Shown here: positions 9,211 to 11,269 of the stretch, piece by piece | Numbering within the stretch: the first letter of the stretch is position 1 | Layout of the letters: each line of letters starts with the position of its first letter | Origin: Marinobacter sp. | Lineage (GTDB): Bacteria; Pseudomonadota; Gammaproteobacteria; Pseudomonadales; Oleiphilaceae | Direction of reading: 5' to 3' | DNA: 64,000 nt | Assembly (NCBI GenBank): GCA_029264995.1 | Contig: JAJUKC010000002.1 | Coordinates: 47,266-111,265, forward strand | Position numbers and translations under genes: made by a program | The notes under the pieces: generated by a model | What the model was told of the DNA's origin: nothing | Databases searched by the model: none | Seen by the model: the letters and a program-made list of their open reading frames with translations, nothing else

Positions 9211-9971
9211 CTACAACGGCAAAGGGACTTCGTCCTGCCGGAACCAACAGGCAATGCTGTATCGGGTGCGATTGGCAGGCAATACCTCGTGGGGCACATC
9301 CTCACTCAAAAACAGGGCTGCCCGCCCTGCTTCAGGTCGGACCAGGCCCACCATCCGGTCTTCGTTATCGGGGCTGAACACCCGCAACTCTCCCCCGTCC
9401 TCCAGCTGCCAACCCTCATTCAGATACAGCACCAGACTGACCACGCGTGAGGCCCTGCCCCGGAAGCTGTCCAGGTGGCGTTTGTAGAAATCACCAGGCT
9501 GATAGGTGGCATAGTGTGCCTCATAACGCTTCAGCCCAAGAAACAAGCGCTGGTTCAGACCAGCCCGCAGGGCATCAAAGAACCGGAACAACTCTGCCTG
9601 GGCGACGGTATAACCATCCAGCCAGGCAATTTTATCCCGGCGGACACTGCGATCGCGGGTCAGGTCGGCACCGCGCCCGATCCCTGCCCGCCCATGGCTT
9701 CAGTACGGTCCAGTATCTCCACCTCGTTACGAAGCGCCGCGATCAATCCAGCGGGTAAATGCCCGAGCAGATCGAGCTCAATCCAGGCTTTCTCGCTCAG
9801 GTTATCGGCCAGCTCATCCAGCCAGTCATCAGGCATCGACACCGAATCACAGCGGCCAGCATCGCCGATCTTGGCGCTGTCACCAGCCACCTTGTCCAGC
9901 TGCCCGGCAGACTGCTCAAGCAGCGGCTCCGGCATCCGCAAAACCACCGCCACAGGATTTTCGGATTCCAT
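9211..9971 (-). pseudogene. 2OG-Fe(II) oxygenase, apparently frameshifted
   Basis: N-terminal half in ORF 9660..9971 (...DDWLDELADNLSEKAWIELDLLGHLPAGLIAALRNEVEILDRTEAMG), C-terminal half in another frame (AGIGRGADLTRDRSVRRDKIAWLDGYTVAQAELFRFFDALR...HLDSF...); junction near 9675-9690. Confidence 0.75.
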
Positions 9972-10062
9972 GTTCAGACCCTCACAATTTTGGCGTATTG
10001 TATTCGGAAACTCGCCGCGCGCACGGTTTTAAATTACTCTGAAGCTACGGAGTTTTACCTAA

Positions 10063-10326
10063 GGAGCCTCTGATCAACTCCAGATCGACTCTGCGAGCCC
10101 TGAGAGCTTCAGATGTAAGGCGCAGTTCGCAGCCAATGGCCGTAGCCCTTGGCAAGAGCTGCAACACAGCAGATGAAGCTCTCAGGGCTCGCCCTACGGG
10201 GCCTGCAGAGCGATCCACACTCCGCGTTGCGACTTTTTGAAAGGCAACCAGCCTTCCTGCAAAGTCGCGTCTTGATTGTGAACCGCTCTGAAGGCCAGAG
10301 ACGATTTGGAGTTAATCAGAGGCTCC
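10063..10326. mobile_element. MITE-like element with 25-bp TIRs and CTAA target duplication
   Basis: ggagcctctgatcaactccagatcg (10063-10087) pairs with cgatttggagttaatcagaggctcc (10302-10326); direct repeat CTAA at 10059-10062 and 10327-10330; internal perfect 18-bp inverted repeat 10093-10110/10175-10192; second stem 10200-10212/10284-10296. Confidence 0.88.
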
Positions 10327-10348
10327 CTAAAGGACGCAGTTTCTGAAT

Positions 10349-11269
10349 ATGTCGGACAGCAGTAGCAAGCCGCCAGCAACCGGAGGCCCCGGCAACTGGT
10401 CATTCACCCGCTGGAGTACCATCGGGCAACTGGAGGCACTTGAGGTTCATCACCCATTGTTCCAGGCCACGGTGTTTCTGCAGGGCGCACACCTCACTCA
10501 TTTCTCGCCAAAAGACGAACGTAACTGGCTCTGGCTCAGTGAACTCGCCCGCTTTCAACCCGGCCGGGCGATTCGCGGCGGTATTCCCGTGTGCTGGCCC
10601 TGGTTTGGAGACCCACTCCGGAACCCGCCGGAGATCCGCAAGCGAATAGTGTCTTCCTCAGCCCACGGCTTCGCCCGCACTGCTTTATGGCGACTGGAAG
10701 ATGTTCGGGAAAGCGCCCATGAAGTAGAGATCAGCCTGTCGCTCAGCGCCAACGACGATTTTGAAGAACACTGGGACGGCCACGCCCTGGCCCTGATCAC
10801 CTTCAGTTTTTCCGTTCGCGGTTGCCAGATCGCCCTGACAACCACCAATCTTTCAAAAGCGCCGCTGGCGTTCAGCCAGGCGCTGCACACCTACCTGCCC
10901 ACAGACGACATCCAGCGAACCCGCGTGCTGGGTCTGGGAAACAGCCAGTACATCGACACTCTGAAAGACTGGGAATACGCCTCACAGGAAGGGCCGGTCT
11001 ACTTCGAGGGTGAAGTAGACCGGATATACGAAACCGGCGAAGCACTGACCGTAGTATCACCCTCCGGCAAGCGAAAGCTTACGTCTGTAGGTAGTGACTC
11101 AACGGTGGTCTGGAACCCAGGCCCCGGAAAAGCGCAACGCCTGTCAGATTTTCCGGATTCTGCCTGGCAGAAAATGCTCTGCGTCGAAACAGCCAATGCA
11201 GCCTCGGATTACCGGGTATTAAATGAAGGCCAGAGCCACACACTGGGTGTATTCATCGGCCGCGCCTGA
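10349..11269 (+). CDS. D-hexose-6-phosphate mutarotase (YeaD family)
   Basis: 306 aa; HHPLFQATVFLQGAHLTHF, RGGIPVCWPWFG, aldose 1-epimerase-like fold. Confidence 0.9.
   Translation: MSDSSSKPPATGGPGNWSFTRWSTIGQLEALEVHHPLFQATVFLQGAHLTHFSPKDERNWLWLSELARFQPGRAIRGGIPVCWPWFGDPLRNPPEIRKRIVSSSAHGFARTALWRLEDVRESAHEVEISLSLSANDDFEEHWDGHALALITFSFSVRGCQIALTTTNLSKAPLAFSQALHTYLPTDDIQRTRVLGLGNSQYIDTLKDWEYASQEGPVYFEGEVDRIYETGEALTVVSPSGKRKLTSVGSDSTVVWNPGPGKAQRLSDFPDSAWQKMLCVETANAASDYRVLNEGQSHTLGVFIGRA

Follow-up and report, generated by a model that had tools for sequence, protein, structure and literature searches.

A probable IS5-type MITE of Marinobacter and other gammaproteobacteria, with a conserved predicted three-way fold and copies inside cobalamin riboswitches

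The window considered here, meaning the whole analyzed stretch of 64,000 nucleotides from a Marinobacter sp. assembly, carries a short element in the space between two divergent open reading frames (Table 1). Downstream lies a gene for aldose 1-epimerase (mutarotase), whose product matches Aldose_epim (PF01263, E = 2e-38) and whose ATG at 10349 follows the end of the element at 10326 after a gap of 22 bp, the distance already given in a first-pass annotation of this DNA. Upstream, an oppositely oriented open reading frame (9660-9971) drew no match in a Pfam search, and the one beyond it (9211-9591) matches 2OG-Fe(II) oxygenase. The 264-bp element itself contains no open reading frame of at least 80 amino acids, and a consensus scan found neither a promoter nor a terminator-like site in it. 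Assignment to a known RNA family was rejected, as no Rfam match was obtained up to E = 1.

Table 1. The element, its parts and the adjoining gene, in window positions
Feature	Positions	Strand	Basis
Left target duplication, CTAA	10059..10062		One CTAA at the G038 empty site; equal 4-bp flanks in 36/77 family members
MITE, 264 bp, oriented with arm A first	10063..10326	+	Copies in own genome and congeners; empty site
Left terminal inverted repeat with core GGAGCCTCTGATCAACTCC; 5' half of stem P1	10063..10092	+	Inverted-repeat and covariation analysis
Arm A, a long hairpin whose 19-bp base pairs perfectly	10093..10192	+	Fold; covariation helices 2-4, 19/38 pairs changed on both sides
Junction linker, a tiny CC-TAC-GG hairpin	10193..10199	+	Fold; covariation helix 5, two pairs
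Arm B, the other long hairpin, in part copying arm A in inverted form	10200..10296	+	Fold; covariation helices 6-9; reverse self-match
Right terminal inverted repeat; 3' half of stem P1	10297..10326	+	Inverted-repeat and covariation analysis
Right target duplication, CTAA	10327..10330		Empty-site comparison
Aldose 1-epimerase (mutarotase) gene	10349..11269	+	Profile match

The outline drawn by the first-pass annotation, a 264-bp element with a CTAA duplication spanning 10059-10330, holds in every boundary, and only two of its internal lengths need adjustment. The terminal inverted repeats (TIRs), described as imperfect and 25 bp long, are present but reach further: pairing extends to about 30 bp, and inverted arms of 34 nt at 88% identity (10060-10093 / 10296-10329) take in most of the CTAA flanks. 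Likewise, the stem described as perfect over 18 bp is indeed perfect, but runs to 19 nt (10093-10111 / 10174-10192). The second stem (10200-10212 / 10284-10296), enclosing gcgacttt and aaagtcgc at 10229-10236 and 10261-10268, was recovered at the same positions. Whole elements also match themselves in reverse at 66-67% over about 280 nt. Folded as RNA, the window copy reached -160.3 kcal/mol, whereas shuffled sequences averaged -90.1 (z = -14.15, with none of 200 shuffles as good), and the opposite strand behaved similarly (z = -14.07). The predicted layout is the three-way junction that had been anticipated, with the addition of a tiny hairpin between the two arms.

Evidence for mobility comes from empty sites and from copies elsewhere. 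In the congener G038, whose flank is 92% identical, window segments 9500-10062 and 10326-11269 align next to each other, overlapping by 5 nt; the sequence TTTTAC-CTAA-AGGA there corresponds to TTTTAC-CTAA, element, CTAA-AGGA in the window. A similar empty site, with the element likewise missing, is found in G015. The element was inserted at a CTAA site. The genome from which the window derives is incomplete (2.62 Mb in 144 contigs, 72.85% complete) and holds a second copy (90%) on contig C124. Counting that genome, element matches occur in 28 of the 124 Marinobacter genomes searched, with 15 match rows each, partly reverse self-matches, in Marinobacter sp. SS21 (G099) and M. xestospongiae (G120). 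The 19-nt TIR core (up to 2 mismatches) reaches 80 of the 124 congener genomes, with 47+55 sites in G099 and 30+31 in G120; a reversed-core control was almost never matched, with 0 in nearly all genomes. Applied to named genomes, a TIR-pair pattern retrieved 45 stretches spanning Marinobacter, Alcanivorax, Saccharospirillum, Microbulbifer, a Pseudomonadales MAG and a Nevskia MAG. The first-pass annotation had proposed that a mobile element should leave multiple copies and empty CTAA sites, and that a single copy at one site in all relatives would argue otherwise; many copies and empty sites are what we find. Neither a plasmid search with the window copy nor a scan of viral contigs with the TIR-pair pattern gave a match, and a plasmid or viral carrier was rejected on that basis. 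The element is small, lacks a transposase gene and has several copies at unrelated sites. It is close to certain that it is a MITE, a type of non-autonomous transposon that carries transposase-recognized ends and no gene.

The duplicated target conforms to the same picture. Equal 4-bp flanks are found in 36 of the 77 distinct elements that measure 150 bp or more, a coincidence expected by chance for about 1 in 256 each, and in 30 of these 36 the flank is a YTAR sequence (CTAG 18, TTAA 6, CTAA 5, TTAG 1), which bears out the earlier reading of CTAA as a YTAR duplication. Identity extends to 5 bp in none. As a single CTAA in the empty site and a doubled one in the window, this is the 4-bp YTAR duplication of an IS5-type MITE.

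Candidate partners are available in the genus. An intact insertion sequence (IS) of 1157 bp in G099 (L096:1330-2486) has CTAA on both sides, ends GGAGACTCTGAATAAGTCT and GGAAGGTCTGAATAACTGC, and a 314-aa transposase that matches the IS5 family (NF033581, E = 4e-103) and Pfam DDE_Tnp_1 and DUF772; G051 and G101 carry similar IS. The terminal core GGARNNTCTGAATAA is common to the MITE and to both ends of this intact IS. The TIR match is partial, with agreement confined to the terminal 15-19 bp (16/19 positions on the left, 15/19 on the right), and beyond the terminal 19 bp or so the ends of L095, L096 and L100 differ from the MITE. The IS found therefore did not give rise to the MITE by simple deletion; judged from the ends compared, such an origin is ruled out for these three loci, as distinct from an unseen IS. 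With this qualification, the proposal of a non-autonomous IS5-group derivative is supported. Congener IS5-family elements share the core; no IS with ends exactly matching the MITE was found. Nor was a DDE_Tnp_1 transposase found in the assembled part (73%) of the window's own genome, and the two found in G120, rich in TIR sites, lack the TIR. DDE_Tnp_1 loci in Alcanivorax, Saccharospirillum, Microbulbifer and Nevskia, considered as parents with identical ends, were rejected since they lack MITE ends. Separately, in G051 (L100:1028-2427) an IS5-family IS at 1028-2183 has a further IS-type left end about 240 bp downstream of it.

Taken with the copies, the empty site and the YTAR flanks, an IS5-family IS with the same terminal core and target argues for a non-autonomous IS5-type MITE. 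An IS5-family transposase supplied from such an IS would move it in trans, insert it at YTAR and duplicate 4 bp; because no IS with the exact ends was found, the assembled part of the own genome yielded no DDE_Tnp_1 gene and the G120 transposases lack the TIR, we infer mobilization in trans, as probable, from ends and target. In the window's own genome, the element entered a CTAA between the two divergent open reading frames, adjoining the mutarotase ribosome-binding site, and would accordingly form part of the leader of that gene if transcription starts upstream. Its body consists of two partly mirroring predicted hairpin arms set on a terminal stem, as opposed to a leftover of the IS found.

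Element length is largely constant. Across 82 elements, lengths of 262-266 bp account for 53, including most copies across genera, with 277-285 bp in 13 and 298 bp in 7, the last confined to G099; short forms measure 157-175 bp and 58-78 bp. G099 (L080-L093) also has further size classes, 279-283 and 298 bp, that arise from inserts in loops of both arms. When diverse members were folded, most gave the terminal stem and two arms; the Nevskia copy folded whole as one long hairpin, and its arms folded separately as hairpins like the others. In a MAFFT alignment of 32 elements, read against the fold of the window copy, 96.1% of cells are paired and 49 of 101 pairs are changed on both sides (274 such cells), with TIRs and both arms all covarying. 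When slid, the structure gave 7-19 such pairs and 14-41 cells, and the observed values were not attained in any of 500 shuffles; these controls are limited, since related sequences inflate shuffle tests and the structure comes from one aligned sequence. An RNAalifold consensus structure gave 48 pairs changed on both sides. By covariation, the predicted three-stem fold is unusually well conserved while the sequence changes, and as a result copies could sit inside transcripts as a self-contained folded domain.

Some copies do lie within a structured leader. Full copies of 265-266 nt occur in G003 (L063/L209), G010 (L065/L216) and G059 (L066) within a cobalamin riboswitch upstream of nrdA (ribonucleoside-diphosphate reductase alpha). 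In G059 the two halves of the riboswitch match RF00174 separately, at 39.3 bits (positions 1-118) and 19.9 bits (124-189; alone below the gathering score), which places the insert in the apical loop of the helix that bears the GCCACUG / GGGAAGGC motif. At the same place G013 (L219) carries a derivative, an 80-bp hairpin that pairs almost perfectly, and G044 (L237) a remnant; these two and one uninterrupted relative give whole RF00174 matches of 71-81 bits. Spacing is the usual 80-93 nt in all of the 30 riboswitch loci read except those of G003, G010 and G013. TIR substitutions with compensation on both sides are common to the full copies of these three Marinobacter species, which points to a single insertion; the nrdA starts of the other full-copy carriers share 79-84% identity with that of G059, a value no higher than for non-carriers. 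Relative to the stems, the three orthologs have 4 pairs compensated, 4 turned to G.U wobbles and 3 broken. In another species, G123 (L238; L021:1501-1766), a separate copy lies a few bases 3' of a cobalamin aptamer.

Reduction of a full copy is visible at a further site, occupied by a 265-bp element in G113 (L062) and by a 58-bp TIR-TIR hairpin in G093 (L071) and G078 (L072). The simplest account is internal deletion of the arms, leaving the short hairpin. The L071 and L072 sequences had been considered as ends of a parent IS and were rejected once recognized as these hairpins at the site of the full copy.

A further pattern concerns the mismatches within stems, counted as distinct pair types at pairs that are Watson-Crick in the reference, a count that makes no correction for phylogeny and depends on the reference structure. 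G.T outnumbers A.C in arm A (19:6 in Marinobacter, 10:4 in Alcanivorax, 3:2 in Saccharospirillum) and falls below it in arm B (5:6, 6:10 and 2:5), with the terminal stem even (7:8, 3:2). Pooled values of 32:12 and 13:21 differ at Fisher p = 0.003, uncorrected for shared descent; read on the opposite strand, arm B has the same tendency as arm A. The asymmetry is suggestive only.

We consider it very likely that an IS5-type MITE, moved in trans and endowed with a conserved three-way fold, best explains these observations as a whole. Two proposals address what maintains the fold. The body may be a structured RNA, or a strand-specific fold, under selection, so that the family would count equally as a mobile RNA domain and as a passive MITE. 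Covariation of the stems, the mismatch asymmetry and the riboswitch copy, which keeps its stems through compensated and wobble changes in three species, all favor this proposal, whereas the lack of an Rfam match or promoter-like site, the dependence of the asymmetry on shared descent and reference structure, and the pointing of arm B to the opposite strand, which fits one continuous transcript poorly, weigh against it; we hold it tentatively, at somewhat less than an even chance. In its fullest form the idea is of a self-folding domain, its branched structure selected as RNA or single-stranded DNA across gammaproteobacterial genera and graftable into working RNAs, with the nrdA riboswitch insertion retained and kept paired in at least three species and shortened to hairpins in two more. 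We give this form, too, somewhat less than an even chance; selection on the fold itself would be the inferred step. Alternatively, compensatory changes could be a by-product of quasi-palindrome correction, by template switching in replication, with no selection on the fold. Long near-palindromes are known substrates of that process, TIRs and arms all covary, and compensation is also seen at the fixed riboswitch site; yet most copies, whatever their genus, retain the 262-266 bp length and the branched architecture, conserved motifs remain at apical and unpaired positions, and arm A has its mismatch bias, so that we regard correction alone as a credible account falling a little below even likelihood. 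That the element simply serves the mutarotase gene as an ordinary regulatory hairpin or attenuator present in one copy, as its place 22 bp before the start codon might suggest, is already refuted by the empty sites in G038 and G015 and by copies elsewhere, the gene region being present in nearly all congeners and the element match in 28 only, with no terminator-like site.

MITEs are usually viewed as decaying leftovers. In this family a given site can hold a full-length copy, a shortened one or none, candidate transposases exist in the same genus and the fold covaries, which allows selection on the fold of a non-autonomous element to be tested against palindrome correction alone. The riboswitch copy is, in addition, a natural experiment on the amount of extra RNA that an aptamer helix can tolerate.

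No published description of the family, in Marinobacter or Alcanivorax, was found in the open-license literature, with most subscription journals outside the scope of the search; as far as could be checked, it is new. The IS5-family IS (NF033581 transpos_IS5_4; L096, L100, L095) resemble it in the terminal core and the 4-bp YTAR duplication, and differ in that the MITE lacks a transposase and has no obvious subterminal sequence in common with them. Correia/NEMIS, ERIC, RUP and QMITEs are likewise short, gene-free elements with TIRs, a target duplication and a stable predicted transcript fold, and MITE transcripts are described as forming stable folds and undergoing RNase III cleavage (review PMC10969869). 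The Marinobacter MITE has other ends and another target, and its fold is branched, with two long arms and covariation across several gammaproteobacterial genera. REPINs, mobile palindromic hairpin units whose spacer shows compensatory changes (PMC3116915), provide a parallel for such changes and for short remnants beside full units; they are much shorter and linked to RAYT transposases, and the 4-bp YTAR duplications and IS5-type ends seen here speak against REPIN/RAYT membership. The pneumococcal BOX element between two T-box riboswitches (PMC3049150) is similarly a repeat co-transcribed with riboswitches in a leader; BOX lies between aptamers, whereas the MITE, judged by sequence, lies within a single aptamer, in the apical loop of one of its helices.
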